Assembly: GCA_009829735.1 (NCBI GenBank) | Contig: CM020619.1 | Span: 25,073,554-25,137,553 of the forward strand | Reading direction: 5' to 3' | Length of the DNA stretch: 64,000 nucleotides | Source of the DNA: Pyropia yezoensis | Taxonomy: Eukaryota > Rhodophyta > Bangiophyceae > Bangiales > Bangiaceae | Made by a program: the position numbers and the translations under genes | In this document: positions 21,411 through 56,222 of the stretch, in pieces | Position numbering within the stretch: the stretch's first letter is position 1 | How the letters are laid out: the number at the start of each line of letters is the position of its first letter | The notes under the pieces: model-generated | Databases searched by the model: none | What the model was told of the DNA's origin: nothing | What the model saw: only the letters and a program-made list of their open reading frames with translations

Positions 21411-21880
21411 TGTGGCAAAAACCACTCGCACACGCGGCACCCGAGTTGGGGCGGTGTACAAGGGCTGCCTCCCGTGTCGGGGGAACCGGAAGAAGTGCAA
21501 GTCGCACACACTCTATCCCTGTTGTGGGGCAATCCCCCCACTGACAAACAAGAAGATCGTGTGTGGGCCAACAGTTTCTTGGTCGGGACGGGGACGCAGG
21601 GCCCAGCCCCGCTGTTCCTCCCCTTATCCCTCCAGGGTCCCCTCAGAATCTCGCCACTCAGAATCTCCCACCCCAGCACCTGCCCACCGGGCCACACGAA
21701 AATTCAAGACGATAAAATGCAGAAAACCCTCAAATCCAAGTTGGATTTACTACTAAGCTAACTATCCCAAACTTAGGGAATATGGACCCAAATGCAGGGG
21801 GAGGAATGGATCAGGCTAGTGGCCTGCCGCCCCTCGCATGGCACGTGTTGCCCCCCTACCTGGGGGTCAATACTGCCACA
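21411..21880 (-). repeat. 3' LTR of element E
   Basis: 470 bp with 7-bp inverted ends TGTGGCA/TGCCACA. Its last 44 bp (21837-21880) are identical to 28507-28550. A polypurine tract on the minus strand (plus-strand ctcccctctcctca at 21881-21894) adjoins it, as expected for the 3' LTR. Confidence 0.85.
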
Positions 21881-22221
21881 CTCCCCTCTCCTCAGTTCCG
21901 ACCGACCCGGTCGGCCCTGTGAGGGGGTGCGTAAACGCACGTCTCGGCGTTGGGGGGGGCGCGACTTGCTGTCCCCCCTTGAGTACGTAACGCGGATGTG
22001 GAGACGGTCACGTTGACCGCCCCTCTCCTCAAGCTTGCCCACTTGGCAGCTTGCTCTCCCCGGTTCCCACTTCACCATCACCAACACATCCCCTTCACCT
22101 TCCCCTTGGCCGCCCCACGCTGGGGAGGCCACCAATCTACCCACGATCCGAGCCCCCCTCAACTCGAGGCGGGTCTCGTGCCGCTGTAACCAGGGCGCCT
22201 CTCCCCAACTTGGGAAGAGTC

Positions 22222-23697
22222 ATGGCGACTCCGGGGGTGGAGACGGACTCCCTCGATGAACGTATGGAGGACACCTCCTACGGTGCAGCGCCCGCCGGGA
22301 CTTCCGGCGGGGGCTCCGCGAACGCTCCGGGGGATGGGACTCCCGCGTCACCCGGCTTTGGGTTGACGGCGGGATCTCCCCCGGAGGCGGGACACGTTGT
22401 CACGCGTGAGGCCTTGGGGCGGTGGTTCTACCCCGCTTGGCCTCTGTATGAGGAGGGGTTGACTGTTCTTCGCTATGGCCGACTTGGCGCAGCGATGGGT
22501 CGGGTATGGGACCGCCTACGGGAGAAGTATCCCCGTAGGGTCGGGTTCCCTGCCGGGTTCAGGACGGACCGGTTTGCCTTCCTGGACGATGAGGAGGTCG
22601 AAGACGTACAGCGGGCCAAGGCCTTGATGGACCGCGGGGGAACTATCCCGGGTCCCGGCGACTTGCCGACCTTCACTTGGGACGCGGTGGCAACTCGCCC
22701 CCCGTACCTTCACGAGGCCGATCCGCACACTCATCACTTTGATGTGCGGATGGAGAAGGACTTCCGTCGAGGTCCCTACTTGGTGACCTCGGCTCAACTT
22801 GAGTTTCCTCAGCAGTCTGCTGCCAGTAAGGAGCAGTACTACCCGAAGAAGCCCGAGTGGTGGCCTCAAGTTGAGGTCCCCTACGGGTTCCCGGCGTTGC
22901 TGCCACGGTTACTCGACCACTTCGGCTCCGTCATGTTGACGGCTAGCCCGGATCATCTGGTGTGGGCCATGTTGGCCACCCAGTGGCTCCTCGAGGTCAT
23001 GTCGACCTGGGTGTCCTGTGTCCAGCGGCGGGGGATGCTCTGGCATCTTCCCCTCCGGCTCATCCAAGGTTTGGAACAGCTCACCCCTCAGCTAGTTGCT
23101 GAGGGGTGCTCGTCAGGACAACTCACTCTACTTGAGGAGATGCTCCGCCTCCACAAGTTTATCGAGTGGGAGAGCATTGAGCACAAGTTGCGCCGCCCCA
23201 CTCGTGGACCCAAGGACGATGGCGCACTTCGCCAGTTCGTACGGGTTGCTCATGAACTTCACGACGGCCGTGTGGTACTACGAGAGGGGTTGGGCATCGG
23301 GGACTACCCGTATGCCCCGGGGGTGGATCGCCACACTGCGCCGCCCCCGGACAATCCCATAGTTATGGCCGTGCCCTCTCACGATGAACATATGACTCAA
23401 CTTGCTGCGGGGGCCCCGAGTAGGGGTCGCAGTTACACTAGGGCACCGCCACCTCGGCGTGCCCCTCCACCTCCTCCTGTCCCCTTCCAACCGCACGGGG
23501 ACATCCCGATTAGCGTGGCTGTTGAGTCGTCCACCCCGGTGTCTCCCAACTTGGGGGCCACCCTTCTGACGGTATACCCCAAGTTGGTGTTACCGGCCAC
23601 GCCTCTGACCTCAGAGATGATGATCACCACGTTGGTGCGCACCATCTCCTGGTTGGCCGCGTCGACCGCGACTCTTCAAACTTCCGAGACTCCTTAA
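22222..23697 (+). CDS. Antisense-strand protein of element E (unknown function)
   Basis: 491 residues from ATG (gtcATGg) to TAA at 23695-23697, on the strand opposite to the element's pol and between pol and the 3' LTR. No known domain is recognised. Landmarks are QYYPKKPEWW (around residue 205) with VEVPYGFPAL shortly after, then FGSVML and VQRRGMLWHLPL. The first two recur as YYPK...IPVGFAP in element D's antisense protein; LDHFGSV matches YFGSV in BC; and RRGMLWHLP matches RRQGRLFHPP in BC and NRLWFLP in D. So this is one protein family in three element families. The C-terminus is Pro-rich and Thr-rich. Confidence 0.7.
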   Translation: MATPGVETDSLDERMEDTSYGAAPAGTSGGGSANAPGDGTPASPGFGLTAGSPPEAGHVVTREALGRWFYPAWPLYEEGLTVLRYGRLGAAMGRVWDRLREKYPRRVGFPAGFRTDRFAFLDDEEVEDVQRAKALMDRGGTIPGPGDLPTFTWDAVATRPPYLHEADPHTHHFDVRMEKDFRRGPYLVTSAQLEFPQQSAASKEQYYPKKPEWWPQVEVPYGFPALLPRLLDHFGSVMLTASPDHLVWAMLATQWLLEVMSTWVSCVQRRGMLWHLPLRLIQGLEQLTPQLVAEGCSSGQLTLLEEMLRLHKFIEWESIEHKLRRPTRGPKDDGALRQFVRVAHELHDGRVVLREGLGIGDYPYAPGVDRHTAPPPDNPIVMAVPSHDEHMTQLAAGAPSRGRSYTRAPPPRRAPPPPPVPFQPHGDIPISVAVESSTPVSPNLGATLLTVYPKLVLPATPLTSEMMITTLVRTISWLAASTATLQTSETP

Positions 23698-24165
23698 CTT
23701 GAGGAGGGCGTTCGTACTGCGGTGGCGACCGCGAGTTGCGAGCCGGTGGCGGAGTTTATGACGGCCGAGTTGGCTCGCATCGGGGCTATTATGCCCCAGC
23801 CAGCCCCACTTGGGCGTGGCAAACGTCGCGCGAGCCGGGCATACTCGCCTCCTCGCCGTCGTCGTCGACACTCACGGCGCTCTCCCTCCGTGTCGGAAGA
23901 CGAGTTGTCTTACTCCGTCTCGGAGTCCTCCACTCCGTCAGAGTCGGAGTCGGTCCGGCGTCTGCGTCGCCAACTTGCGCGCAAGACCAAGCAGAAGAGT
24001 AGGCGCAGTCGTCGCCACTTGCGCGACCGTGAGGGGCACGACGACTCCGACTTGGAGCCGCCGGCCCTGCCGACTGGCGGGGAGCGATATCGACGGGGGT
24101 CTCGCCGCTCGCCTCCACGTGAGGGCGAGGGCCGTGGAGTCGGAGAGTCTAGCATGCATGCCTAG
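23698..24165 (+). CDS. Same-frame extension of the antisense ORF after one stop
   Basis: Directly after the TAA at 23695-23697 the same frame runs open for about 155 codons to 24165. It encodes an Arg/Ser-rich, very basic tail (RRRRRHSRRSPSVSEDE and more RS-like stretches). It may be a readthrough extension or the former C-terminus cut off by a nonsense change. Confidence 0.4.
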   Translation, partial: LEEGVRTAVATASCEPVAEFMTAELARIGAIMPQPAPLGRGKRRASRAYSPPRRRRRHSRRSPSVSEDELSYSVSESSTPSESESVRRLRRQLARKTKQKSRRSRRHLRDREGHDDSDLEPPALPTGGERYRRGSRRSPPREGEGRGVGESSMHA

Positions 24166-24276: not shown

Positions 24277-25065
24277 TCACGTTGAGGGGGGGCTGTTAGG
24301 GTCTATCTCATTCCGGGCACAGTATGCCCGGACCTTCTCAGCAGGAAGGTCCTCCACATATTCCCACGTGTCATCTTTGGCTTTGTTGCCGAACCAACGC
24401 ACCCTCAACATGAGGCGGTTAGTGTCCTCATCCCAGCCGTGGTCGATGAATTTATCGAACACGTACTCCTGCGGGCCCTGTTTGGCCGCAGGCAGCGAGG
24501 GGAGGCGCCACGCTTCCAGCGCCCGCGCCCAAGCTGGGTCGCCTGCAGGCGGTGATGCAACTTTGACCACGTCCTGTCCGTTTACTGTGCGGACCCCATC
24601 GTCACTTTCGATGGTGAAGCGCCGCCCGTCAGTACGAAGGACCTGGTATGGTCCCTTCGTCTGGAATACCATTTTACCCCCAGTTGGGGTGTGTGAGTGT
24701 ACCAATACCCAGTCACCCTGCTCGAAGACATGCTTAGCATTGCGCACCTTTTTGTCAAAGGTACGCGTGTAGCGCTTTTGTGCTTTGTCCATCTCAGCCC
24801 TGACTTTAGGGATGAGGTTTTCAAGCCTAGCAGCGAACTCCGCCTTACTCTCAGTAGGAGTAGGCGTACTGCCACCATCTTCCCTAGTTGGGAGCGGCCG
24901 CCGCACGGCAATAGACCGCACGCGACGGGGGGTCACAAAAGCGAGGGGTACTTCCCCGGTAGATGAGTGAACCTGCGAATTGTAGGCGGTCGTAAGAATA
25001 GAAATGTATTGGTCCCACGTTTTCACATGCTCACTCACATAGTGGCGCAGCTGCGCCAGAAGGGG
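24277..25065 (-). pseudogene. 3' end of pol of element E (integrase C-terminus and chromodomain)
   Basis: Only the last part of pol is left. It starts within the integrase (HYVSEHVKTWDQYISILTTAYN), passes the GPY-type module (DWVLVHSH...MVFQTKGPYQVL) and ends with a chromodomain-like segment (EYVFDKFIDHGWD...LRVRWFGNKAKDDTWE). The aromatic residues and the W-x-G/W-E pattern fit chromoviruses. Upstream of 25065 the frame continues into element A sequence in reverse, so the break point lies near 25065. Confidence 0.8.
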
Positions 25066-25187
25066 TACTCCCCAGGGCAGCAAACAGAGGCAAGCAATGC
25101 CCCGAGCGGGGGATGAGTTTACACTCACTACTACCCGGCCACCATAAGGGCCACCGGGTCCCTCTCCCGTACAAACAATAACACTCC

Positions 25188-25688
25188 TCAGTGGGTAGAC
25201 CCACTGCCCGAGGGAGGCCACTCACGCGTAAGCGCGTATACCTCCGTGCTCCACCGGTCGGCAATGTCACGACGGTCGATCACCCGAGTTACCTCGGTGC
25301 ATAGCTGGACGAGGGTGCTGCGGCCAGCCTCCACGTCCTCCAGAGCTTTCTGGAGGCGGTCAAGCACGCCACCGAAGCAACGCGCTGACCCAACCAGCAC
25401 AGCACCTGGGGGGATATCCCCCCAGCTAACAGAGAGACCCTCCCGCATTGCGCGGGCAACAAGGGCGTCAACGCCCTCATACCAGAGACGGGGACCCCCG
25501 TCATTCATGACAGGGGCGGGAGGTGACACTGGCGCAGCCAGAGGAGCCACAGGAGCCGACACGGCTACCACCGGAGCCGGTGGCACCTGATACGAGGCCC
25601 GGTAGCACCCTACTGAACGGGCCCCACCGTAAACCCGGCGGGGCTCGGCCCGACGACGGGACACCTCACGCTCCCCACCGGCAGAGCC
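25188..25688 (-). CDS. Post-stop extension of the antisense ORF, copy A
   Basis: Continues the frame of the ORF at 25689-27557 after its TAG. It contains GPRLWYEGVDALVARAMREG, matching the copy in BC (32681-33181) and resembling the C-terminus of the uninterrupted antisense protein of element D (WYLNQGG...). Confidence 0.5.
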   Translation of the reverse strand, partial: GSAGGEREVSRRRAEPRRVYGGARSVGCYRASYQVPPAPVVAVSAPVAPLAAPVSPPAPVMNDGGPRLWYEGVDALVARAMREGLSVSWGDIPPGAVLVGSARCFGGVLDRLQKALEDVEAGRSTLVQLCTEVTRVIDRRDIADRWSTEVYALTREWPPSGSGSTH

Positions 25689-27557
25689 CTACTCTCGGGG
25701 ACGACGGCCAACCGCCGCCGGTATCGGGTTACCGAACCACGGGGCAAGGACCTGAAGAGGGTCATGGATAACCATGGGAATACCCAGGTCAGGAACGGCC
25801 TCGGTGGACGCCCACCCATGGCAACTAGGCCCACCCGGCTGAGTACGCCGGATACGCAACGAGTGACGAGGCAAGGGGGTAGCCCCAGCCTGCGGGTCCC
25901 GGTACGGGGGAAGGGCCAACACCCCAACCCAGTTCAAGGCATCGTGAACAGCCAGCAGGGCCTCGAACTCCCGGGCCAACCCGGTCTTGGCAGCTATCAT
26001 GTCCACGCCCAACTGCGCGATGTGCCGACGGACACCCGTCGGAAGATGGAACAGGCGCCCCTGCCGACGGACGGACAGCAGGAAGGAGGAACCCTGCCCG
26101 AGGGTAACCTCAAGGGTAAAGGTTTCTTGCAACGGGTGGACCGGCCGGGAGGCCAACACACTCCCGAAGTATCGCAGACAAGGGCCGGTGTCAAACCGGA
26201 AAGCAGGGGCGGGTTCCCACCCCTCCTGCCACAGAGGCGGGCGCACGGCAGTGTACACCGGCGCGCGACCGTTACCGGTCTGCAACGCACACGTTATATC
26301 GGTGCGGAACGCATCCGCCATGACACCATGGTTGCGTCGCCAGCTCGACGCCGACTTCAAACCCGCCATAGGCGGGTAGGGAGCAGCCACCAACAGATAC
26401 GGGGGTACCCCCGGCAAGTACTCAAAGCCGGGATACCGGCCGGTATCACCCACCGTCTCCCCGAACGCAACCGGCGCCGCCGCCGCCGCAATCCCCCGAG
26501 CACTAGCCGGGTAGTCAACCTCCCGCGGCAACGCGGGAGCAATCAGGTCGCATACCCTGAAGGCGGGGTCGAGGTAGACCTCACCCTGTCCCACTTGAGT
26601 ACGCCAGAGCTGCGCATGCCGGTCGTCCGGCTGACTCAAGATCCAATGGTGTTCCACTCGCACCGCGTTCGGCTGGTTGACCAGCCGCATCAACTCCCGC
26701 TCCCAATTCGGGTCCACCTTGACGCGCCGGGAGGGCTCTCCACGGGGATGTGGCAGGTGGAAGTCCACCCGCATCCGCCCATCGGACTCCATTGACTCTT
26801 GTACAGTCAGGCCTCGAACCCGAGCCACCAAGTCGAACATCGACATGGCGGGTTGACCCGCCGCCACGGCGACGCCGCCACCCAACGCGGCAACCCGGGC
26901 AGGACCAGGAAGAATAGGGGGCGCCGGGGGATGCCCCACCGGAAGAGGGGCCGGCACCGGAGTCGCACCGGGCCGAGGAGGAAGAAGAAGGGCGGGCGCC
27001 CGCCCGGAGTAACTACCGGAGTCCACTGCCATCGGTGTAGACCCACCTTGACCGCCAGACGCCCGCGGCACCGCGGGCAGAGCAACGCCGCCACCCGAGC
27101 CCGACGGGGGTACCACGGGGGCAGCACGGGTAGACCCGCTACCCGCCGCAGCGGACACACCAACCGGGCGGGCACCCGCGCCGTCTTGACCCGCCGGGCT
27201 GGCCGGGGTGCCGCCACCACCATCCGCCACGCCGGCGACACCGTCTTGACGTAGAGCCACGCCGGTACCGGCGACAGAAGCCATCCGGGCCGCCGGAGGA
27301 GAAGCGGTAGAAGCCACCGCTGCACGCGGCTGTCCGCCACCCGACGGAGCCGTCGTGCCGCTACACACAGACGACAACCCGCCCGGCGCGCCTTCCGGGG
27401 CCACACGAACGGTCACCCGGGCGTCCTCGTCCTCCGACGAGCTCGATAGGAAGCACTCGGCGGCGGTGGCGGAGACGGGAACGTCGTCCACCATCACCTC
27501 TTCCTCCTTCTCAAGCAGGAGGTCGTCCTCGCCCCCGGGTACCTGGGGGTCCGACAT
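25689..27557 (-). CDS. Antisense-strand protein, copy A
   Basis: 622 residues from the ATG at 27555-27557 (cggtttcaccATG) to a TAG. Nearly identical to the BC copy at 30812-32680, with scattered replacements, several in the Pro/Ala-rich middle. The first 40 residues are acidic (EDDLLLEKEEEVMVDD); residues about 280-600 are better ordered (YPGFEYLPG, SSWRRNHGVMADAFRTDITC). No known domain. It is still open although its element has lost gag and pol. Confidence 0.7.
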   Translation of the reverse strand: MSDPQVPGGEDDLLLEKEEEVMVDDVPVSATAAECFLSSSSEDEDARVTVRVAPEGAPGGLSSVCSGTTAPSGGGQPRAAVASTASPPAARMASVAGTGVALRQDGVAGVADGGGGTPASPAGQDGAGARPVGVSAAAGSGSTRAAPVVPPSGSGGGVALPAVPRASGGQGGSTPMAVDSGSYSGRAPALLLPPRPGATPVPAPLPVGHPPAPPILPGPARVAALGGGVAVAAGQPAMSMFDLVARVRGLTVQESMESDGRMRVDFHLPHPRGEPSRRVKVDPNWERELMRLVNQPNAVRVEHHWILSQPDDRHAQLWRTQVGQGEVYLDPAFRVCDLIAPALPREVDYPASARGIAAAAAPVAFGETVGDTGRYPGFEYLPGVPPYLLVAAPYPPMAGLKSASSWRRNHGVMADAFRTDITCALQTGNGRAPVYTAVRPPLWQEGWEPAPAFRFDTGPCLRYFGSVLASRPVHPLQETFTLEVTLGQGSSFLLSVRRQGRLFHLPTGVRRHIAQLGVDMIAAKTGLAREFEALLAVHDALNWVGVLALPPYRDPQAGATPLPRHSLRIRRTQPGGPSCHGWASTEAVPDLGIPMVIHDPLQVLAPWFGNPIPAAVGRRPRE

Positions 27558-28144: not shown

Positions 28145-28506
28145 TGTAGAAATATGGTTGTCCGTATTGTGACCCTAATATTAGGGGGGCTACTTCGAAT
28201 CCTTAACTTTCAATTGAGAGTCCGTACTGGTCACGGTATCTATAAGTAACGTATGACCAGAGGGACTTGCATCTTGGAGTGGAGGGTAGTTAGTAGTGTC
28301 TCCGAGGGTTTATAACGAGGGGGCCGGTGGCGAATCCACCGCCGGCCAAGGTAGAACAACAAACCCCTCCCATTTGGGCTCCCATCTTGGTCCCGTGGCT
28401 TGCGCTCCAAGGACAGCAACCTTGGCCTCCCGGTGACGTTGGTGCCGATCCCCCCTGGTGAGTGTTCCCTGAGAGTGGACGTGCGACGGATCCCTATTGT
28501 GCTACA
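28145..28506 (+). repeat. 3' LTR of element A
   Basis: 362 bp, TGTAG...GCTACA, clearly related to the 364-bp LTRs of BC but with more differences than those two have from each other. Confidence 0.85.
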
Positions 28507-28550
28507 CATGGCACGTGTTGCCCCCCTACCTGGGGGTCAATACTGCCACA
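28507..28550 (-). repeat. 44-bp remnant of the second LTR of element E
   Basis: Identical to 21837-21880 and followed by the right target-site duplication gagga (28551-28555). Confidence 0.88.
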
Positions 28551-29858: not shown

Positions 29859-30222
29859 TGTAGCACAATAGGGTATCCGCTGCACGTCCACTCTCAGGGA
29901 ACACTCGCCAGGGGGGATCGGCACCAACGTCACCGGGAGGCCAAGGTTGCTGTCCTTGGAGCGCAAGCCACGGGACCAAGATGGGAGCCCAAATGGGAGG
30001 GGTTTGTTGTTCTACCTTGGCCGGCGGTGGATTCGCCGCCGGCCCCCTCGTTATAAACCCTCGGAGACGCTACTAACTACCCTCAACCCCAAGATGCAAG
30101 TCCCGCTGGTCATGCGTGACTTATAGATACCGTGACCAGTACGGACTCCCAAATTGAAAGTTAAGGGTTAGAAGTAGCCCCCCTAATATTAGGGTCACAA
30201 TACGGACAACCATATTGCTACA
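29859..30222 (-). repeat. 3' LTR of element BC
   Basis: 364 bp, TGTAGCA...TGCTACA. Read on the plus strand it has a TATAAA at 30052-30057 pointing toward the antisense ORF. Confidence 0.92.
30052..30057 (+). promoter_or_regulatory. Candidate TATA box for antisense transcription
   Basis: TATAAA within the 3' LTR, oriented toward the antisense ATG 755 bases downstream. The reverse strand also reads TTTATAA, so the same spot could serve sense transcription from the other LTR. Confidence 0.3.
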
Positions 30223-30811: not shown

Positions 30812-32680
30812 ATGTCGGACCCCCAGGTACCCGGGGGCGAGGACGACCTCCTGCTTGAGGAGGAGGAAGAGGTGATGGTGGACGACGTTCCCGTCTCCGC
30901 CACTGCTGCCGAGTGCTTCTTGGCGAGCTCGTCGGAGGACGAGGACGCCCGGGTGACCGTTCGTGTGGCCCCGGAAGAAGCGCCGGTTGGATTGTCGTCC
31001 GTGTGCAGCGGCACGACGGCTCCGTCGGGTGGCGGGCAACCGCGTGTAGCGGCTGCCTCTACCCCTACTCCTCCGGCGGCCCGGATGGCTTCTGTCGCCG
31101 GTGCCGGCGTGGCTCTACCTCGAGACGCCGTCGCCGGCGTGTCGGATGGGCGTGGCGGCACCCCGGCCGGGACGGCGGGTCAAGACGGCGCAGGTGCCCG
31201 CCCGGTTGGTGTGTCCGCGGCGGCGGGTAACGGGTCTACCCCTGCTGCCCCCGTGGTGCCCACGTCGGGCCCGGGTGGCAGCGATGCTCTGCCCGCGGTG
31301 CCGCGGACGCTTGGTGGTCAAGAAGTGTCTACCCCGATGGCAGTGGACTCCGGTAGTTACTCCGGGCGGGCGCCCGCCCTTCTTCTTCGTCCTTGGCCCC
31401 GTGCACCTCCGGCACCGGCCCATCTGCCGGTGGGGCATCCCCCGGCGCCCCCGATTCTTCCTGGTCCTGCCCGGGTTGCCCCGTTGGGTGGCGGCGTCGC
31501 CGTGGCGGCGGGTCAACCCGCCATGTCGATGTTCGACTTGGTGGCTCGGGTTCGAGGCTTGACTGTGCAAGAGTCAATGGAGTCCGCTGGGCGGATGCGG
31601 GTGGACTTCCACCAGCCGCGTCTCCCTGGAGAGACCTCCCGGCGCGTCAAGGTGGACCCGAGTTGGGAGCGGGAGTTGGTGCGGCTGGTCAACCAGCCGA
31701 ACGCGGTGCGAGTGGAGCATCATTTTATCCTGAGCCAGCCGGACAACCGGCATGCGCAGCTCTGGCGCACCCGGATTGGGCGGGGTGAGGTCTACCTCGA
31801 CTCCGCCTTCGGGATATGCGACCTGATTGCCCCCGCGTTGCCGCGGGAGGTTGACTACCCGGCTAGTGCTCGGGGGATTGCGGCGGCGGCGGCGCCGGTT
31901 GCGTTCGGGGAGACGGTGGGTGATACCGGCCGGTATCCCGGCTTTGAGTACTTCCCGGGGGTATCCCCGTACCTGACGTTGACGGCTCCGTACCCGCCTA
32001 TGGCGGGGTTGAAGTCGGCGTCGAGCTGGCGACGCAACCATGGTGTCATGGCGGATGCGTTCCGCACCGATATAACGTGTGCGTTGCAGACCGGTAACGG
32101 TCGCGCGCCGGTGTACACTGCCGTGCGCCCGCCTCTGTGGCAGGAGGGGTGGGAACCCGCCCCTGCTTTCCGGTTTGACACCGGCTCCTGCCTCCGATAC
32201 TTCGGGAGTGTGTTGGCCTCCCGGCCGGTCCACCCGTTGCAGGGTACCTTCACCCTTGAGGTTACCCTCGGGCAGGCTTCCTCCTTCTTGCTGTCCGTCC
32301 GCCGGCAGGGGCGCCTGTTCCATCCTCCGACGGGTGTCCGTCGGCACATCGCGCAGTTGGGCGTGGACATGATAGCCGCCAAGACCGGGTTGGCCCGGGA
32401 GTTCAAGGCCCTGCTGGCTGTTCACGATGCCTTGAACTGGGCTGGGGTGTCGGCCCTTCCCCCGTACCGGGACCCGCAGGCTGGGGCTACCCCCTTGCCT
32501 AGTCACTCGTTGCGTATCCGGCGTACTCAGCCGGGTGAGCCTAGTTGCCATGGGTGGGCGTCCACCGAGGCTGTTGCTGACCTGGGTATTTCCATGGTTA
32601 TCCATGACCCTCTTCAGGTCCTTGCCCCGTGGTTCGGTAACCCGATACCGGCGGCGGTTGGCCGTCGTCCCCGAGAGTAG
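30812..32680 (+). CDS. Antisense-strand protein of element BC (unknown function)
   Basis: 622 residues from the ATG in near-ideal context (ttcaccATGt) to the TAG at 32678-32680, opposite in strand to gag and pol. It has an acidic N-terminus, a Pro/Ala/Gly-rich linker to about residue 240, then an ordered half: MSMFDLVARVRGLTVQESME, a basic segment with RVKVDPSWERELVRLVNQPN, YPGFEYFPG, SSWRRNHGVMADAFRTDITC, a YFGSVLASRPVHPL segment and RRQGRLFHPPTGVRRHI. No protease, RT, envelope or transmembrane segment is seen. Parts match the antisense proteins of E and D. Position (between pol and 3' LTR, reversed) recalls the antisense ORFs known from some plant Tat-type Ty3/gypsy elements, but I see no sequence link. 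Confidence 0.75.
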   Translation: MSDPQVPGGEDDLLLEEEEEVMVDDVPVSATAAECFLASSSEDEDARVTVRVAPEEAPVGLSSVCSGTTAPSGGGQPRVAAASTPTPPAARMASVAGAGVALPRDAVAGVSDGRGGTPAGTAGQDGAGARPVGVSAAAGNGSTPAAPVVPTSGPGGSDALPAVPRTLGGQEVSTPMAVDSGSYSGRAPALLLRPWPRAPPAPAHLPVGHPPAPPILPGPARVAPLGGGVAVAAGQPAMSMFDLVARVRGLTVQESMESAGRMRVDFHQPRLPGETSRRVKVDPSWERELVRLVNQPNAVRVEHHFILSQPDNRHAQLWRTRIGRGEVYLDSAFGICDLIAPALPREVDYPASARGIAAAAAPVAFGETVGDTGRYPGFEYFPGVSPYLTLTAPYPPMAGLKSASSWRRNHGVMADAFRTDITCALQTGNGRAPVYTAVRPPLWQEGWEPAPAFRFDTGSCLRYFGSVLASRPVHPLQGTFTLEVTLGQASSFLLSVRRQGRLFHPPTGVRRHIAQLGVDMIAAKTGLAREFKALLAVHDALNWAGVSALPPYRDPQAGATPLPSHSLRIRRTQPGEPSCHGWASTEAVADLGISMVIHDPLQVLAPWFGNPIPAAVGRRPRE

Positions 32681-33181
32681 GGCTCTGCCGGTGGGGAGCG
32701 TGAGGTGTCCCGTCGTCGGGCCGAGCCCCGCCGGGTTTACGGTGGGGCCCGTTCAGTAGGGTGCTACCGGGCCTCGTATCAGGTGCCACCGGCTCCGGTG
32801 GTAGTCGTGTCGGCTCCTGTGGCTCCTCTGGCTGCGCCAGTGTCACCTCCCGCCCCTGTCATGAATGACGGGGGTCCCCGTCTCTGGTATGAGGGCGTTG
32901 ACGCCCTTGTTGCCCGCGCAATGCGGGAGGGTCTCTCTGTTAGCTGGGGGGATATCCCCCCAGGTGCTGCGCTGGTTGGGTCAGTGCGTTGCTTCGGTGG
33001 CGTACTTGACCGCCTCCAGACAGCTCTGGAGGACGTGGAGGCTGGCCGCAGCACCCTCGTTCAGCTATGCACCGAGGTAACTCGGGTGATTGACCGTCGT
33101 GAGATTGCCGACCGGTGGAGCATGGAGGTATACGCGCTTACGCGTGAGTGGCCTCCCTCGGGCAGTGGGTCTAGCCACTGA
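32681..33181 (+). CDS. Post-stop extension of the BC antisense ORF
   Basis: Same frame as 30812-32680, open for 166 codons after the single TAG. It encodes a Pro/Val-rich spacer and then GPRLWYEGVDALVARAMREG...FGGVLDRLQTALEDVEAG. The same arrangement, including the TAG, is found in copy A, and a similar segment ends the antisense protein of element D without any stop. Hence it is likely part of the protein, by readthrough or before a nonsense change. Confidence 0.5.
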   Translation, partial: GSAGGEREVSRRRAEPRRVYGGARSVGCYRASYQVPPAPVVVVSAPVAPLAAPVSPPAPVMNDGGPRLWYEGVDALVARAMREGLSVSWGDIPPGAALVGSVRCFGGVLDRLQTALEDVEAGRSTLVQLCTEVTRVIDRREIADRWSMEVYALTREWPPSGSGSSH

Positions 33182-33631: not shown

Positions 33632-36600
33632 TTACAGTAGGCGTCGTCGCCTCATGTAAGGCATGAGAAGTTGGCGGGGTATATTCGCCGCCTGTTCCCA
33701 GGTGGGTGAGTCGTATCCAACCCACATAACCTTGACGTACGAGGGTCCTGGTAGGTCCGGGTCGGTGTGTCCGACCACGCTCTCTACTTGGTATGGAATA
33801 CTATCCGGTCCCACTGGGTCATCTGACCGGTGGGTTGTAAGAGCTTCATGTAGCAACCCAGCCGGTACCGGCTGAGGCTGTTCCGGCTTTGGCGCAGGTG
33901 TCACATCGTTGAGGTTGATGCGTTGTATCTCCGTATCGGAGTGCAGGATTACAGAGTGATCATCTTTGTGTAAGATCTGGTACGGTCCCTTGACCGGTTG
34001 CATCAGCTTGTTCCCGCGGAACTTCTGGTGTCTGATATAGACCCAGTCACCTGTTACCAGGGTTGCGTTGCGTACCCGTAGCCGGGCGTCAAAGTTCTTC
34101 TTGTACCGAAGTTGTGGACGGTCAAGGGCACCCTTGAGCTTTGGAATCATCCACGATAGCTTGGCCAACCAAGCTAAGTGGATTCGTTCGGCCGGTCGGC
34201 CCTTCGGTATATCATACCGAGTGCATCTGCCCGGTGGCAGCGTCAGGTTACCGACGCCCATCGGCATGACCCATTCCAGGGGGGCAATGGTGGTACTCCG
34301 GTGGGGCCTGGCATTGTATGCCAGGGTCAAGACGGACAGAAGCCTGTCCCACGTCTTCGTGTGTTCCGCCACATAGCATTGGAGCATCTTGACGATGGTG
34401 CGGTTGAACCGCTCCACCTGCCCGTTGGACTGTGGGTGGTAGTCGGATGCCCGACGGGGTTCGATACCGAACATGCCCAGGACCTTAGTGCAGAATGCTG
34501 ACGTAAGGTTTGCTCCGTTATCGGAAAGGAGTTGCTTCATTACTCCGTAAGCACTGATCCAGTGGTCATCCACTGCGTTCATGATGGTGTAGGCCGTATC
34601 GTCCGGGATTGCTACTGCCCGTGATAGCTTAGTAAAGCGGTCCGACATGACCAGGATGTACCTGTTCCCTTCTTCCGTTACCGGAAGCGGTCCCTGTATG
34701 TCGATAGCGACTTGCTCCTTGGGTCCATCCGGGGGGAACAGTTTCATAGCGGATGCCCGCCTATGAAGACTCATGCGATTCCGTGCGCACGGGTGGCATC
34801 CCCGCACGTGGTCGATTACGTCGACGGCCATTGCTGGCCAGTAGAAGAACCTTCGCATTGCTGCGTACATGCGCAAACCCCCCGGGTGTCCGGCTGTTGG
34901 GCTCTCGTGTTCTCGTTCCATGACGGCCTGCCGTAAGGACACGGGAACTACGACCTGATGCCGTCCATCGGAGGGTGCCCGCCGGTATATGAGTCCGTCC
35001 TCGTTCTCGGAGAAGATGCCGGCCGTGCCGGCCAGGAGGTTAGCACGATGGCGTTTACAGTCATCGTCATTGGCCTGTGCCTCGCGGAAGTCCGCGAGGG
35101 TCAATGGGCACGCAAGGTGTGCCATGGTATGGTCGACCATACCTTGGGTAGCATTACCCACCATGCACACCGGTACCACCGGGATGTCTTCGTCCACCTG
35201 TCGGGTATCCCCGCTTGGGGTATCGAGTCGCGACAGCGCGTCCCCCAGATGATGGGTGGAGCCGGCCTTATATATGGTCCGGTAGTCGTGCTCGGCCATC
35301 TTCAGCCTCCACCGAGCTAGCCGACCGTGGCTGTCGGAATCCTTGTCACCAAGGTTGAGAAGCCATCGTAAAGGTTCGTGGTCGGACCTTACGATGAACC
35401 TGGAACCTTCCAGGTATGGCCGGAGCAGTTGCACTGCCCATATGACTCCGAGGCCATCGCGCTCGGTGGCACTATAGTTACGCTCAGCCGGGTTGAGTGT
35501 CCGGCTGAAGTACCCTACCGGATGTAGGTCCGGGATAGCATTATCGGTACCGATGATGGTCTCTCCCTGTAGCAGGGTGCATCCCACTTGGGAGTCGCAG
35601 GCGTCGACGTCGATGACGAAGGTCCCGCGTCTATGCGGCAACGCAAGCACGGGTGGGGCTAGCAGAGCTTGCTTGAGCAGCTCGAATGCCTCTCCCTCGC
35701 TGAGCGAGGGAGGTTGGAGTACCTTTGGCAAGGCACTGCTCGTCAGAACCGTTAACGGTTTGGCTATACGAGCGAAGTCCTTGACGAACCGTCGGTACAC
35801 GTTGCACATTCCCAGGAAGCTTTTCAGCTGTGTCTGGGTGGTTGGGTATTGCGCATCCCGGAGTGCCCGGGTATTGGCTTCGAACACTCCCAGTTTACTT
35901 GGTGTGATCTGGTGACCCAGATACTCGACTGTCTGCTGGAAGAAGGCGAACTTCTTGAGGCGCAGGGTTACCCCGGCGTTCCGCAAGAGGGTGAGTACCT
36001 CGTCGACATGTTGCACATGGTCATCCATGTTACACGAGAAGACGATGACGTCGTCCAAGTACACTAGGCAGTTACGCCACTTCACCCCCGACAGTATGAT
36101 GTCGATGGCCCGTTGGAATGTGGCGGGGACGTTGGACAATCCGAAGGGCATCCTTAGGAACTCGTACACGCCACTGTGACAGACGAATGCCGTCTTGGGG
36201 ATATCCTCTTCCGCCACTGGGGTCTGCCAGTACCCGGCATTGCAGTCGATAGTGGTAAACACTGTGGCTTCCCCCAGTGAGTCGATACACTCGTCCATCC
36301 TTGGTAAAGGGTATGAGTCTTTCTTGGTAACCAAGTTGAGGCGTCGATAATCGATGCAAAACCGAGGGGTTTGATCCTTCTTCGGTACGATCACGACTGG
36401 GGCACCCCACTTCGACATCGAAGGTCGGATCACCTTAGCTTCACTCATCCTCTTCACTTCCCCATCAACGATCTCTCGTTGCATAGGTCCCGCACGATGC
36501 GGTTGCGACCGCGCTGGTCGAGCACCCTGTACCAGGTCTATACGGTGTTGGGTTGCCCCAATGGTACCCAGCGCCCCGCCGGTCCACATGACGTCGTGCT

Positions 36601-37723
36601 TTCTTAGCATCCGTCGTACCTCTTCAGCTACCGAAGGGGGAAGGTGGTCGAGGTCAGCCTCGGCCAGTGCCTTCAAGGCTTCTTGGTCCTTTGGCGGCAT
36701 GTCCGCCGGAGCCGCCGATGGGTTAGGCTTCCCGTCATCGGGTTGCTGTCGCTCGGTGGTCTCGGCGACCGCCAGCACCTCAAGTGGTTCCACTTGACCT
36801 TCCTTATCAGGGGTAAGAATATCTCCTTCGTAGAGCTCGGCAATCCCGAGGATAGTTCCCTTCGGGAGGGTGACTGCCTTACGGCGATAGTTCGCTATCA
36901 CCAGCAGTGATGACCCCCATGCTGGGAGGTCAGCGATACCATTGGCCATGGTCAACCCATGGCGCTTGTAGGTTCGTAGGTTGGACTGGACTCTGCAGAT
37001 GCCTGCGAGGTCACAGTTAACCGGGAGGACTGTCTCCGATAGCGGCTCAAAGCGAGTCCGCTTGGCCAGCCGGAGTGTCTTCGGTTCTACGCTTGCGTAT
37101 ACCTCAGCCACGTTAACGTGGCTCCCTTGTAGCGTCAGGCCCCTGACGATCGCTGTCTGTCCTCTCTTCGTCCCGTCGGCCTCTTGCAGCTCGACGGTCC
37201 TCCGGCCCGGCCGGATTGCATCAACGTGAACGTTGATGAAGGTGCACTCCAGTATGCAGGGCACCGATAGCGTCTCACATACCAGGAAGTCAACTTCCGT
37301 AGTAAGCTCCCCGATGGTGACCTGCAGCGACATCGCTGCGGTCGTACGAATGAGACGACCATTCGCATCCTTGATCGTGGGTCCCCGAGCAACTCTGACT
37401 CGCGGGAGCCACTTGTCCGGGAAAGTATCCTTCCGGATCAAGTAAGGTCCAGCCCCTGTATCCAGTACGGGGTAATACGACCGGGTCGACTGGGGGTCTA
37501 CCCCCAGTGTGGCTGATACCTTGAAGTTCTCCAAGGTGAACAGTACATGGCCTACACCGATATCCGGTGTAGCTCGAGCATCCTGAACAGGGCCCTTGTC
37601 TGGTTCCATGTGACGGGGCTTCCCGTCCTCTCCTCCCAACCTTGGTGGTTGGTCATCAATCCCCTGACGCCGTGTCGTCGGGGCCGGAAGGTGTACCCGG
37701 GGGTTGATGCGGCGTTGGCTCAA
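33632..37723 (-). CDS. pol: Pol polyprotein of element BC (protease, RT, RNase H, integrase, chromodomain)
   Basis: About 1363 codons, uninterrupted. Domains: aspartic protease with DTGAGP (residues 88-93); reverse transcriptase with RFCIDYRRLN (454-463) and the catalytic YLDD (555-558); RNase H with FVIDVDACDSQVGCTLL; integrase with an H-H-C-C zinc finger ending CHPCARNR, then AIDIQGPLP (Asp), LSDNGANLTSAF (Asp) and HPQSNGQVERFNR (Glu); and a chromodomain-like end (VKVMWVGYDSPTWEQ). This order is that of Ty3/gypsy chromoviruses. There is no clear ATG at the start; the frame is shifted relative to gag, so translation may depend on a frameshift or on a spliced message. All catalytic motifs are intact. 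Confidence 0.93.
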   Translation of the reverse strand: MSQRRINPRVHLPAPTTRRQGIDDQPPRLGGEDGKPRHMEPDKGPVQDARATPDIGVGHVLFTLENFKVSATLGVDPQSTRSYYPVLDTGAGPYLIRKDTFPDKWLPRVRVARGPTIKDANGRLIRTTAAMSLQVTIGELTTEVDFLVCETLSVPCILECTFINVHVDAIRPGRRTVELQEADGTKRGQTAIVRGLTLQGSHVNVAEVYASVEPKTLRLAKRTRFEPLSETVLPVNCDLAGICRVQSNLRTYKRHGLTMANGIADLPAWGSSLLVIANYRRKAVTLPKGTILGIAELYEGDILTPDKEGQVEPLEVLAVAETTERQQPDDGKPNPSAAPADMPPKDQEALKALAEADLDHLPPSVAEEVRRMLRKHDVMWTGGALGTIGATQHRIDLVQGARPARSQPHRAGPMQREIVDGEVKRMSEAKVIRPSMSKWGAPVVIVPKKDQTPRFCIDYRRLNLVTKKDSYPLPRMDECIDSLGEATVFTTIDCNAGYWQTPVAEEDIPKTAFVCHSGVYEFLRMPFGLSNVPATFQRAIDIILSGVKWRNCLVYLDDVIVFSCNMDDHVQHVDEVLTLLRNAGVTLRLKKFAFFQQTVEYLGHQITPSKLGVFEANTRALRDAQYPTTQTQLKSFLGMCNVYRRFVKDFARIAKPLTVLTSSALPKVLQPPSLSEGEAFELLKQALLAPPVLALPHRRGTFVIDVDACDSQVGCTLLQGETIIGTDNAIPDLHPVGYFSRTLNPAERNYSATERDGLGVIWAVQLLRPYLEGSRFIVRSDHEPLRWLLNLGDKDSDSHGRLARWRLKMAEHDYRTIYKAGSTHHLGDALSRLDTPSGDTRQVDEDIPVVPVCMVGNATQGMVDHTMAHLACPLTLADFREAQANDDDCKRHRANLLAGTAGIFSENEDGLIYRRAPSDGRHQVVVPVSLRQAVMEREHESPTAGHPGGLRMYAAMRRFFYWPAMAVDVIDHVRGCHPCARNRMSLHRRASAMKLFPPDGPKEQVAIDIQGPLPVTEEGNRYILVMSDRFTKLSRAVAIPDDTAYTIMNAVDDHWISAYGVMKQLLSDNGANLTSAFCTKVLGMFGIEPRRASDYHPQSNGQVERFNRTIVKMLQCYVAEHTKTWDRLLSVLTLAYNARPHRSTTIAPLEWVMPMGVGNLTLPPGRCTRYDIPKGRPAERIHLAWLAKLSWMIPKLKGALDRPQLRYKKNFDARLRVRNATLVTGDWVYIRHQKFRGNKLMQPVKGPYQILHKDDHSVILHSDTEIQRINLNDVTPAPKPEQPQPVPAGLLHEALTTHRSDDPVGPDSIPYQVESVVGHTDPDLPGPSYVKVMWVGYDSPTWEQAANIPRQLLMPYMRRRRLL

Positions 37724-37806: not shown

Positions 37807-39996
37807 TTACTCGTTTCCCGTGCTCGGCCGGGTACTGTCCTCCGGGGCATCCGAGGGAGGGGGTGCCTCCTCGACTGCCAGTACTCCTCCTAGAGCTTGC
37901 TGCCTACCCGGTGCCGGGCCTCGGGCGGGATACCCACCCATGGATGCCTTGCGTTGCGCCGCTCCCCGTCGAGACTCCTCCGGGATGAGTGGGCATGCGG
38001 ACACCCAGTGTTGGGGGTCTCCGCACAACATACATCCGGACGTGCCGACCGTCCCGGGCGTCCGCGTCGGGTTGGCTCCATAGGTCCGGTTGCCTGCCTC
38101 GGGCGCCCGAGTGCCCGCCCCTTGGTAGGCCTTGGGTCCCGGTGCCAGCCGGAACATGGACTCCCCCGACCGGTTGGCTCTACCAGCGATGTGCGGAGGT
38201 GCCTCCGTACGTACTGCCCATGTCGGCAGGGGCTGGTGGGGGTTACCCGTAACTGGGGCATACCCCATAGTCCGCACATACGGGACGCGCCGACCCGCTC
38301 CCTCGTTGACCTGGAACTGGGTCCCAGCCGGTGCGATGCACGCTACCGTACCATGCTCATCAATCACCGGCGTCGCCGGTAGCAACAGGTGGCCCTGTTG
38401 GTCGACTAGAGGTTCATCCTCACCGGTAGGGGGATGTTCGGTCGCTACCAGTACTGGTGCGGCCTTACGTTCCACCTTCTCTTGCCCCGGTACCGGGGTA
38501 AGACTGGGTTTGCCTCCCTCACCCTTGGACTTCGGGGCCAAGGCGCATTCCGGGTGTAGCACCCGGTAGGCGTCCCCTAGGGACTTGCACATATGCATCA
38601 GTCGACTGAAGCTCGTCCGGGCCGTATTGGCTCCCCGTGCGGATATCCGCACGTAGTTGGGTACTCCTGCGAACAGGATGGCCCGTAGTTCCCCTTCACC
38701 GAGGAGCTTCCCCAGCTCGTAGTCGAGCTCTTGGATCCGGCGTCCAAACATCTCCTCATCCTCCCAGGACTGGGCGGTGGCAGTGCGCAGGGCCCGATAG
38801 TGGTCTTCGCACTTGTCCTCACTGAGGTAACTGCTCAGCAGCTCCTTGAGAATCCCACGGTAATCCATGGGGGTGTCTGCAACCCTCATTCCCGGCATCG
38901 GGGATGCCTGGCGGAGGATGCCTCGAACGCGCTCGTCAACAAAGAACGGGAGAATCTCCTGCGCCAGCCCCTCGTTGACGAGTGCCTTGTCTGCGGCTGC
39001 CTTAAAGCTAGTCAAGAAGCCGATGACTGCCAACGGGCGTCCGTTGGGGCCCCCGAACATAGGGACTCCCTTCATAAGGGTCTGCATAGAGCGGATCGCT
39101 CGGTGCGAGGTCGTACGCATCGATTCCGATACGGCAGTGGATCGGTCCTCCAAACGGTAACGTTCGTGAGTCAGTACCGACCTGAAGACTTCGTTGACAA
39201 TCTCCGTGTCCGCGTTCTGGATATCCAGTCGCTTCGCCAGTTGATGAGTGAACTCATCGGACTCCAACCGCTTCAGTAAGCTCGCAGTAACCTGCGCTGT
39301 CATCGCTTGCACCAGTGACGCTGGAGCTTCCGGCGTCGGCGCCTCGGGTACCCGAGTTGCCTGGCTTCCGTCGTCGAGGGGGTAATGGGAGACGGTACCG
39401 TCTCCTCCCATCGCCGACTCTGTTCCGGCGTAAGTGTCCGCCGGACCATGTCCGCGGAGCCCGCTCTGGGTGCTCCGTGTGTAGCGTTCCGTATGGCTAC
39501 GTTCCAACTCAACCGACGAGTCGGATCCATAACCCGCCGTATCCGGGGGTTGTCCAGGAGTAGCAACACCGGGGTTGACCCTGGTGGCCTCCGAAAGTAG
39601 TCCGGCCAGTTCGAACCGTACCGGTGTGGGAGGAACACGACGGGGTCCCGTCGTGTGGCGTGTTGACATCAACACTGCCATTGCGTCCTCCGTACGCTCT
39701 TGACGGGCGTCGAGCCCGGTGAACCGGGCTTCGATGCGAGCCAATGATGCCATCAGGGAATCCCCTGGTGAAGGAGGCGGCGGAGTGAGGTCGGTCGATG
39801 ACAGTTGAGGCGGGCCCCCGCCTCCTGCCGTCCGAGCCGTGCCAAACGTCGATCCGGCACCGGAAAGCATTGGCGTCTCAATGTTGTCGATCGGGTTACC
39901 GATCCCGGTTCCCGGGTTCAGCTCCGGGGTCGGCGTCGACGCCGATCCGTCACCTTGAACGTTCCCCGTCTCTTGGGTGGACATAGTCACAATCAT
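37807..39996 (-). CDS. gag: Gag protein of element BC
   Basis: 729 residues from the ATG at 39994-39996 (a second ATG four codons on has a better context). Capsid-like central region with a helical, charged composition (VFRSVLTHERYRLEDRST ... FFVDERVRGILRQA) and a CCHC zinc knuckle, C-x2-C-x4-H-x4-C, at residues 655-668 (CMLCGDPQHWVSAC). Follows the PBS in the usual position. The Pro/Thr-rich N-terminal third is probably disordered. Confidence 0.88.
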   Translation of the reverse strand: MIVTMSTQETGNVQGDGSASTPTPELNPGTGIGNPIDNIETPMLSGAGSTFGTARTAGGGGPPQLSSTDLTPPPPSPGDSLMASLARIEARFTGLDARQERTEDAMAVLMSTRHTTGPRRVPPTPVRFELAGLLSEATRVNPGVATPGQPPDTAGYGSDSSVELERSHTERYTRSTQSGLRGHGPADTYAGTESAMGGDGTVSHYPLDDGSQATRVPEAPTPEAPASLVQAMTAQVTASLLKRLESDEFTHQLAKRLDIQNADTEIVNEVFRSVLTHERYRLEDRSTAVSESMRTTSHRAIRSMQTLMKGVPMFGGPNGRPLAVIGFLTSFKAAADKALVNEGLAQEILPFFVDERVRGILRQASPMPGMRVADTPMDYRGILKELLSSYLSEDKCEDHYRALRTATAQSWEDEEMFGRRIQELDYELGKLLGEGELRAILFAGVPNYVRISARGANTARTSFSRLMHMCKSLGDAYRVLHPECALAPKSKGEGGKPSLTPVPGQEKVERKAAPVLVATEHPPTGEDEPLVDQQGHLLLPATPVIDEHGTVACIAPAGTQFQVNEGAGRRVPYVRTMGYAPVTGNPHQPLPTWAVRTEAPPHIAGRANRSGESMFRLAPGPKAYQGAGTRAPEAGNRTYGANPTRTPGTVGTSGCMLCGDPQHWVSACPLIPEESRRGAAQRKASMGGYPARGPAPGRQQALGGVLAVEEAPPPSDAPEDSTRPSTGNE

Positions 39997-40208: not shown

Positions 40209-40572
40209 TGTAGCACAATAGGGTATCCGCTGCACGTCCACTCTCAGGGAACACTCGCCAGGGGGGATCGGCACCAACGTCACCGGGAGGCCAAGGTTGC
40301 TGTCCTTGGAGCGCAAGCCACGGGACCAAGATGGGAGCCCAAATGGGAGGGGTTTGTTGTTCTGCCTTGGCCGGCGGTGGATTCGCCGCCGGCCCCCTCG
40401 TTATAAACCCTCGGAGACGCTACTAACTACCCTCCACCCCAAGATGCAAGTCCCGCTGGTCATGCGTGACTTATAGATACCGTGACCAGTACGGACTCCC
40501 AAATTGAAAGTTAAGGGTTAGAAGTAGCCCCCCTAATATTAGGGTCACAATACGGACAACCATATTGCTACA
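40209..40572 (-). repeat. 5' LTR of element BC
   Basis: 364 bp; by eye two substitutions relative to 29859-30222. Followed by the duplication ctacg (40573-40577). Confidence 0.92.
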
Positions 40573-44090: not shown

Positions 44091-44322
44091 TGTGGTATAA
44101 ACTCGATCCTCTCAGACACGTGTCAATATCCCTCGGGGGAAAGGGACAGGTAACACAGAAAGGGGAACTACGAGAGTGGTATGCCTGTTGCCTCACGTGC
44201 CTGCTCGCAGGGCGATCAGATACGCACGGTAGTGCACACGGGGAAGAGGAAAGCAAACGCGCAGTTGTCTTTTTCCTGAGGGCGCGGGCCAAGGGCGCCT
44301 CGCTGTCCCTCTTAACCTGCAT
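44091..44322 (-). repeat. 3' LTR of element D, outer part
   Basis: Matches 56245-56476 of the intact LTR with three visible substitutions. Starts TGTGGTATAAA. Confidence 0.9.
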
Positions 44323-47300: not shown

Positions 47301-47404
47301 CCTGCCTGAGTTGCAAGCATCTGCCTGTATCTATTGCATTTCAAACAGGCGTTGAAATACAGGAAAACATGCAGTGAAATACAGTTGTTCCGGTCGCCGA
47401 CGAT
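44323..47404. mobile_element. Element F: 3.08-kb DNA transposon of unknown family
   Basis: Perfect 16-bp terminal inverted repeats CGTCGGCGACCGGAAC (44323-44338) and its complement (47389-47404). It interrupts D's LTR exactly; the intact LTR reads gcatctggg, here gcat|F|atctggg, so the target duplication is AT (or ATC if one base of the repeat is not counted). Just inside both ends is the motif TGTATTTCAC. No transposase is recognisable, so it is probably non-autonomous. Its interior contains C-rich tracts (about 45880-46170) and a roughly 450-bp spaced direct repeat (46199 and 46651). Confidence 0.82.
45475..46353 (+). CDS. Open frame inside element F, doubtful
   Basis: A 292-codon frame. 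The first 125 residues look like ordinary protein (FWLVDVMISFENVAFPHVL ... SLHGLASYEDYLLDQ); the rest is Pro/His/Ser low complexity from the C-rich tract. No family is recognised. It could be a captured gene fragment. Confidence 0.2.
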   Translation: MNLHGGTIAFWLVDVMISFENVAFPHVLLMTYVRMLEHSEIGDASRTFSSIFELSVCASTGSFVELSQILNRVGRSLHGLASYEDYLLDQSAQSATTTWRPLNELVATVAALEAARHWMRVEHEPGLPHIALLHPPPCLHLTPPSTPRSHSPPSPASALPDCPFSHRVVSHSFPAPLPPPLVSTPRAPLLSISSPTSPHPCPPPTPPFLHPSRPPRFPPSPLPLPRTHALPFPLTLLVHHSGMCGRCHGWCMWVDRLDGAALVMHVGVCAGGCSRGGTRGRVGGWQLPWWWR

Positions 47405-47744
47405 CTGGGGGAGCCTCGGCACGTTGGCCAGGTAACCCCCCCCCATACCCCCGAGTGGCCCCGACCCGAGTCTAACCTCGTCAGGTCGGGGGCCACTATC
47501 ACTACTAATTCTATTCCCACTCACCAATCTCACACTCAAATTCTCTCAAATCAAGTCCCTCACAAATATGCAAAAACCCATCAGAAATCCCTCTCTCACG
47601 TGTGGATAGCGTAGTCCACCGCATCCCAGTGCCGGGCACGGGCCACGGCCGCCAACCATCACCACACGGCGGGCGTGTACTGGCACCTGGTGCCCTCTGG
47701 TTGCAGTCTCGGGTCGGCGCCAAGTCGGGGCCAGGGATGCTACA
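47405..47744 (-). repeat. 3' LTR of element D, inner part
   Basis: Matches the intact LTR up to ...GGGATGCTACA (56817), with two visible substitutions. Confidence 0.9.
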
Positions 47745-49826: not shown

Positions 49827-50187
49827 CAGTGGTCAGAGACCTTCACTGGCTTCCAGGGGCGCCGACAGGCATATCTGGATAAGCGGGAGCGCCCGGCCAC
49901 TACCGGTACTACTCCAATGGCGTCATACCTGGAAGCGCCGCGCCCACCGCACTACGTCATCCCGCCTTCCTCCGGTTCCCGTCGTGCCGCGGAGGCAGCG
50001 CTGGAGGACGCTCCCGCGGCGCAGCGTCCGCGCCGGGAGTAGTACTTGGAGGCAAGGAGGGTGAGAGTCTTGGGAGAAGCGAGGAGGGAAGAGGCGGAGG
50101 GAAGGGTTGCTCGAGCGGGTGCTTGTTTTCCTTGATTGTTCCATGCTTGCATTGCGTGTTTTCCTTGATACACCCGTTCTCTTCTTC
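49827..50187. other. Convergent intergenic region inside element D
   Basis: 360 bp between the facing ends of the antisense ORF and pol; no frame of interest. Confidence 0.4.
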
Positions 50188-56036: not shown

Positions 56037-56222
56037 GTTGGTCTCTTGACAGCCACAGTCCAGTTGCCTGCGTGTCCAAAGATCGCAGGACCACAAGAGA
56101 GGGGTTGGAGAGCCAGGAATGGGATTCCCGTGAACGGGTGCAAATAATTCCCGAACCACAGAAAAAGACAGAACAGGAACAACCCAACCGCTGCTCCCAA
56201 ATGTCTCTTCTCAAACACTCCT

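Follow-up and report, generated by a model that had tools for sequence, protein, structure and literature searches.

Genes on the strand opposite to gag and pol, beside the 3' long terminal repeat (LTR), are known from flowering plants, one fungus and some retroviruses (PMC11963269, PMC7264820). In plants, an antisense additional open reading frame (ORF) between pol and the 3' LTR, termed aORF-3R, is described for maize Grande (gene23), rice RIRE2, Silene Retand and PvRetro13, and the antisense protein of Grande is reported to localise to the nucleus (PMC7264820). The TRP28 domain (PF04195) of Retand is likewise antisense and between pol and the 3' LTR, recurs as a single conserved region across most of the families in its lineage, is predicted to bind DNA and is reported only from flowering plants (PMC11963269). 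Antisense genes of human T-cell leukaemia virus (HTLV) are mentioned in both papers (PMC11963269, PMC7264820). We analysed a stretch of 64,000 nucleotides of the red alga Pyropia yezoensis (contig C2:25073554-25137553; hereafter the window) that contains four ends of LTR retrotransposons, called here A, BC, D and E. All four (4/4) carry a long ORF antisense to pol. We are nearly certain that this ORF, which lies antisense to gag-pol in the interval from pol to the 3' LTR, is a selected accessory gene of Ty3/gypsy elements.

A preliminary description of the window had reported four ORFs with ATG starts on the strand opposite to pol, and all four were confirmed at their coordinates. The ORFs, and two parts of the A protein, are as follows.

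30812..33181, + strand: antisense ORF of A; ATG at 30812, in-frame TAG at codon 623 (32678-32680), then open to a TGA (790th codon)
31517..32494, + strand: conserved core of the A protein, residues 236-561
32900..33178, + strand: C-terminal portion of the A protein, shared with the P. vietnamensis protein P0008 and modelled, at low confidence, as helical; beyond the TAG in the window copy
25188..27557, - strand: antisense ORF of BC, with the same TAG at codon 623
47931..50042, + strand: antisense ORF of E; ATG at 47931, in-frame TAG at codon 632, then open to a TAG ending at 50042
22222..24165, + strand: antisense ORF of D; ATG at 22222, in-frame TAA at codon 492, then open to a stop at the 648th codon

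The location between pol and the 3' LTR is seen in A and E; D and BC keep just the end of pol or less. The length originally given, 490-630 codons, is right for the ORF up to its first stop and wrong for the full frame, which is open beyond one in-frame stop and measures 789 codons (A), 705 codons (E) and 647 codons (D) in other copies.

The ORFs are longer than expected by chance. The longest ORF starting with ATG in the stretch between pol and the LTR was 622 codons in A, 631 in E and 491 in D. In simulated sequences (order-2 Markov model, n=1000 each) the 99th percentiles of the longest ORF were 336, 425 and 328 codons and the maxima 481, 540 and 405 codons, respectively; the observed lengths were never reached. 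GC content by codon position was not decisive. There are 42 ORFs of at least 250 codons in the window, many of them overlapping, as would be found if the antisense ORFs were a spurious product of GC-rich DNA. We regard that explanation as having a negligible chance of being correct, as it is refuted by the frame-specific selection described below; the excess of length over the simulations and the homology between families also speak against it.

The pattern common to the four window copies, one stop followed by an open frame, raised the possibility of programmed read-through. As a general rule it was rejected. No stop was found at the position of the window-copy stop in the 26 other A sequences, the 29 other D sequences or the 8 E copies, and the three sites and their contexts differ. 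Three related proteins (P0005, P0007 and P0013) have sense codons at the stop sites of the window copies, and the homologues P0007 and P0008 align through the TAG of A.

We found evidence of purifying selection first in the comparison of A with BC. The two differ at 131 of 2370 bases, with a ratio of non-synonymous to synonymous substitution rates (dN/dS) of 0.53 over the whole frame. This ratio had been proposed as a check in the preliminary description and is not near 1. When the same changes were placed at random, the mean dN/dS was 0.94 and only 1 of 400 simulations was as low as 0.53. The core alone gave 0.46 (2.5% of simulations as low), and the tail past the stop gave 0.89, which, with only 10 changes, is indistinguishable from neutral. 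Codons 554-711 have only 6 changes in 474 bases. The stop common to A and BC sits in this stretch of low divergence and so may be recently shared.

We then compared copies from the whole genome (107,475,971 bases in 11 contigs). Forty A loci were fetched, 13 of them duplicates, leaving 27 distinct loci; there were 30 D loci, and the window copies are counted in. The set used for selection in A was the window copy plus 19 loci from a DNA search (n=20), and that for D was all 30. The eight E copies that were read were picked from those whose matched part is free of stops. The D and E loci and part of the A loci were ranked by protein similarity, so that non-synonymous change inside the query is depleted; the DNA-ranked A set and the part of D outside the query (codons 366-647) are largely free of this bias.

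Changes that arise after insertion are expected in single copies, and changes that spread with an active lineage are expected in several. Variants were therefore split by the number of copies carrying each, one versus three or more. Single-copy variants in A comprised 167 synonymous, 300 non-synonymous and 10 stops; variants in three or more copies comprised 55, 27 and 0. The corresponding counts in D were 88, 93 and 3 versus 65, 9 and 0. The part of D outside the query gave the same picture (51, 81 and 3 for single versus 29, 7 and 0 for shared variants). Fisher tests of the contrast gave P values of 1e-12 for A (all 27 sequences) and 7e-10 for D, which are too small because the variants are not independent. 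The ends of pol behaved similarly: synonymous to remaining variants were 6:0 (shared) versus 42:70 (single) over the last 120 codons in A loci, and 23:4 versus 32:53 over the last 170 codons in D loci. The eight E copies had a ratio of non-synonymous to synonymous polymorphism (pN/pS) of 0.20. The antisense protein is under purifying selection in the lineages that multiplied, and the earlier claim that selection kept it is borne out by the A-BC ratio, by the strongly synonymous shared variants of A and D, and by E.

The selection is specific to the reading frame. In four other frames, synonymous changes made up only 13-14 of 76-82 shared variants in A and 3-13 of 70-74 in D, with stops counted as non-synonymous. 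The mirror frame, on the opposite strand and with common third positions, was intermediate (47:34 in A and 51:20 in D). These counts bear on the idea that the functional part is an antisense RNA, which might for instance give rise to double-stranded RNA, with the ORF as its by-product. Non-coding antisense RNAs are described for other elements (PMC7264820), but an RNA function would not protect codons: the shared variants are synonymous in the ORF frame and not in four of the five others, and less so in the mirror frame. We consider this explanation very improbable. A conserved promoter between the LTR and the ATG of A was also tried and rejected. It was hinted at by A versus BC (7 differences in 586) and was lost across 20 sequences, in which pairwise divergence was 0.069-0.104 versus 0.062 at fourfold sites.

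The ORF is open in most copies found. All copy counts cover ORF-bearing loci, as the ORF, rather than pol or an LTR, was the entry to the search. We scored 123 of 2288 candidates for A, 128 of 3331 for D and 119 of 1966 for E; by reading of the match tables, 104/123, 128/128 and 108/119 of these, respectively, had no stop in the query stretch. Among the 27 A loci, the frame from the start motif was 789 codons in seven, 791 in one and 808 in one; 10 ended early and eight were without the exact start motif searched. Aligned to the window frame, 12 of the 27 had no stop or gap, 12 had at least one stop and three had gaps only. Lengths were more uniform in D, with 647 codons in 26 of 30 loci, 652 in one, 491 in the window copy, and 592 and 468 in two others. 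The E frame was 705 codons in 8/8 copies, which had been preselected as described above. Thirteen of 26 compared D copies (the window copy, two broken copies and the one of other length being excluded) encode an identical protein, indicating that the D family moved recently with its ORF open.

The stops in A are not evenly placed. The first stop fell within codons 621-657, before the C-terminal domain, in six of the 12 stop-bearing A sequences (scan P 0.002-0.009). Three of these six had been ranked by similarity of the core protein, which favours stops outside the core. A truncated A protein may be tolerated.

Pol lies on the opposite strand in 25/27 A loci and 29/30 D loci, and an LTR match lies ahead of the ORF in 25/27 A loci. 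The preliminary description had named absence of the ORF from other full-length copies as a refuting result; approached from the ORF side, the search gave many copies in which the ORF adjoins pol. A recent capture or insertion is unlikely, since the ORF occupies one and the same position across three diverged families, at every element end of the window and in most of the A and D loci read. Retroelements do capture genes (PMC7264820), and the protein family may ultimately have come from a host; the view that the ORF was taken from the host, or is a transposon nested in the elements, has to contend, in addition, with the lack of a homologue in Pfam, NCBIfam and PDB sequences, and we think it improbable.

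The antisense proteins of the three families are related, although not each to each. The preliminary description had held that the protein is conserved across all three, and the homology is real: A-D and D-E are significant, and A and E are linked solely through D. Single BLASTP comparisons gave 4e-8 (A-D), 2e-8 (D-E) and 0.030 (A-E). Compared with locally shuffled cores, A-D had a z of 14.3, D-E 12.5 and A-E 0.0; D against P0014, a distant relative of E, had 20.3 and A against P0014 3.8. Comparison of profiles (hhalign) gave E-values of 3.9e-5 (A-D), 8.1e-9 (D-E) and 0.22 (A-E). A and E are thus not directly alignable beyond chance, and the statement that three families share the protein rests on D as a bridge. 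A lack of alignment beyond chance had been named beforehand as a refuting result; with A-D and D-E aligning, the claim was not refuted.

The motifs first listed as shared fared similarly. YYPK is present in D and E and absent from A; FGSV is present in A and D and absent from E. Common to all three are E-x4-F and, 53-58 residues on, L-x-x-(L/P)-P. Two columns are invariant in an alignment of 14 sequences and four in the 13-sequence versions. The antisense protein evolves faster than pol. The C-terminal zone of A resembles that of P. vietnamensis (z 22) and is weakly like that of E (1.1% of shuffles as good); the zone of D was unlike those of A, E and P. vietnamensis, and that of P. vietnamensis unlike that of E.

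In P. vietnamensis, five proteins that bear the annotation 'hypothetical' show 46-60% identity to the part of A used in the search. One relative of the E protein is 43% identical to E; its best matches in the P. yezoensis genome are 44-45%, many of them at places of the E family. Two relatives lie on short ENA contigs. No relatives were confirmed in viral contigs or prokaryote genomes in scans for a few peptide patterns. From the homology it follows that the gene was already in the common ancestor of the three families; today these share 29-43% identity in their integrase C-termini.

The elements that carry the gene are identifiable from the rest of their sequence. By the order of pol domains, the paired LTRs and the primer site, A and E are Ty3/gypsy LTR retrotransposons. 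Their features, and those of the partial elements, are as follows.

33632..37723, - strand: pol of A (reverse transcriptase (RT), RNase H, integrase) by Pfam; convergent with the antisense ORF
37807..39996, - strand: ORF of A in the position of gag; no Pfam match
40209..40572, - strand: 5' LTR of A, 364 bp, TG...CA; flanked by the 5-bp duplication CGTAG, with the primer binding site TTGGTGGAGCAGCAGGGG next to it
29859..30222, - strand: 3' LTR of A, 99.45% identical to the 5' LTR; adjoined by a purine-rich tract ending GGGGGGGATA
28145..28507, + strand: 3' LTR of the partial element BC
50188..53568, - strand: pol of E (RT, RNase H, integrase, chromodomain below cut-off), 145 bp from the end of the antisense ORF
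54399..56159, - strand: ORF of E in the position of gag; no Pfam match, 28% identical to its A counterpart over 434 aligned residues
56246..56817, - strand: 5' LTR of E, 572 bp, apparently TGT...ACA, with AGCAG on both outer flanks
47403..47744, - strand: inner portion of the 3' LTR of E; the remainder, 44091-44323, is separated by an insertion
24277..25221, - strand: residual end of pol of D (integrase C-terminus, chromodomain below cut-off)

Pol of A and of E matched the Pfam families RVT_1, RT_RNaseH, Integrase_H2C2 and rve, in that order, with the rve match in A under the curated cut-off. Chromodomain matches were weak, at 17.6 bits in E and 19.3 bits in D, both below the Pfam cut-off of 25.1, and a Pfam scan gave none in A. 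The two pol proteins are 46% identical over 1060 aligned residues and A and E have the primer-site sequence TGGTGGAGCAGCAGGGG in common; identity of the integrase C-termini is 39% for A-E, 29% for A-D and 43% for D-E. In A, 450 bp separate the stop of pol from that of the antisense ORF, which begins 589 bp inward of the 3' LTR. BC is the 3' portion of an A-type element in reversed orientation relative to A. What remains of element D runs from the end of pol through the antisense ORF to the 3' side, and D copies share sequence to about 21411.

Several other features of the window lie in or near these elements. The insertion that breaks the 3' LTR of E is 3079 bp long (44324-47402); it carries the inverted 13-bp sequence CGTCGGCGACCGG at its ends and is accompanied by a duplication of 3 bp (ATC). 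An ORF at 43096-44352 (- strand) has DDE_3 and HTH domains, its N-terminal portion overlapping the LTR remnant of E at 44091-44323. Another, at 19540-21507 (- strand), matches DDE_Tnp_1_7 (2.8e-37), which we take to be a piggyBac-type transposase; its listed start overlaps the D-shared stretch that begins at about 21411. Divergence among D copies is 0.5-0.7% in a stretch around the 3' LTR of D (about 21572-21961), versus 5.7% at fourfold sites of the ORF. The LTR end of D thus looks more uniform than the gene it encloses, perhaps through template switching. A tandem repeat at 60800-62100, with 105-bp spacing and eight copies reported, has long ORFs on both strands.

As first described, the protein has no recognised domain: 14 members were scanned and nothing convincing was found in Pfam. 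Three isolated matches were dismissed as noise: ASTN_2_hairpin (0.0085) and DUF6214 (0.014) in Pfam, each in a single member, and a PDB chain with an E-value of 0.78. The same scan of 14 members gave no SMC domain. None of the 14 matched TRP28 (PF04195) at E-values up to 10, although the scanner retains few matches weaker than about 0.1; this is weak evidence against a remote kinship with the plant antisense ORFs. The N-terminal part is of low complexity and is acidic in A (net -16 in the first 60 residues). The C-terminus of D is basic, with RRRRR and many Arg and Ser. In a structure model of P0008, a relative of A, the best parts are helical (residues about 341-400, with block means of 48-58, and 561-630, with 41-54), a hint that the conserved core may be helical.

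An origin by duplication of gag or pol was considered and rejected, as the antisense protein is not similar to the gag-position ORFs or pol of A and E above shuffled sequences. That result also bears on the proposal that the protein is a structural or assembly factor of virus-like particles, that is, an additional Gag-like or Env-like protein made from the other strand. It occupies the same place as env-like genes (PMC7264820), and the core is predicted, at low confidence, to be helical. Against this proposal, the protein has no Pfam match and no likeness to gag-position ORFs or pol, and it is encoded on the opposite strand; env-like additional ORFs are in sense orientation after pol. It seems to us an unlikely role.

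A role as a nuclear regulator is possible, and we put it forward tentatively. It is suggested by the analogy with plant aORF-3R, by the charged ends of the protein and by the advantage that a promoter independent of the sense LTR would give. A separate antisense transcript would start in or near the 3' LTR, or between the 3' LTR and the ATG, and would make expression independent of the sense LTR promoter. In the nucleus, the protein would regulate transcription, silencing or delivery of element DNA. A rival proposal is that it is an anti-silencing factor, made from an independent promoter while the element is shut, that lifts host silencing and so enables expression of gag-pol. The principle of anti-silencing is known from plant DNA transposons. 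The separate strand, the place adjoining the 3' LTR, the many copies per family and the youth of D (with half of its compared proteins identical) are all in keeping with such a factor; the absence of a domain match is not. We think this proposal rather unlikely, if somewhat less so than an assembly factor.

Taken as a whole, we favour an ancient accessory gene whose product is most likely nuclear and acts in trans on the RNA or DNA of the element, with a probability of roughly 0.55. Several results weigh against it. All four window copies stop before the C-terminal end, and at least one stop is present in 12/27 A sequences; on these grounds, the gene need not function in every copy. In E, single and shared variants (86:59 and 93:47) show no clear contrast. 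The loci were found through the antisense ORF itself and the best matches were taken, which favours intact and similar copies. Searches of Pfam, NCBIfam, PHROGs and PDB sequences gave no convincing match to the protein. The basic tail is clear only in D, and P0008 has no run of Lys or Arg; the model of P0008 has a mean predicted local distance difference test score (pLDDT) of 30.7, too poor to assign a fold.

A broader proposal has about even odds. The Ty3/gypsy elements of Bangiales may be an ambisense lineage, in which a third gene with its own promoter was gained before the families split, independently of flowering plants, and has been required for multiplication since. We read the architecture as a known one (aORF-3R) and the protein family as one for which we found no description; literature searches, with subscription papers mostly outside their coverage, gave no account of such an ORF in red algae. 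Repeats make up 48% of the P. yezoensis genome, with LTR retrotransposons predominant (PMC7423979), and the gene may thus help drive genome size. With more than 100 scored copies per family and frame-specific selection in two families, its function can be tested directly in a seaweed that is under cultivation.

HTLV-1 has an antisense gene, HBZ, which is encoded on the minus strand near the 3' LTR and whose product is a nuclear regulator. The likeness to the algal gene, drawn from description alone, is that of a minus-strand protein near a 3' LTR; the difference is that HTLV-1 is a human retrovirus. Boty of Botrytis cinerea is a non-plant element with an antisense ORF in the same place (PMC7264820), and is likened to the P. 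yezoensis elements by position alone. Retand shares the antisense placement of TRP28 (PMC11963269) and differs in its domain, PF04195 having no match among the 14 algal members. The closest described systems are the plant aORF-3R genes, which have the same place and orientation and are likewise shared between families and species (PMC7264820), whereas the genes described here are in a red algal host and their protein showed neither a TRP28 nor an SMC domain in a Pfam scan. The recurrence of this layout in a third major lineage, where the protein appears to be unrelated, suggests that the layout itself is advantageous.

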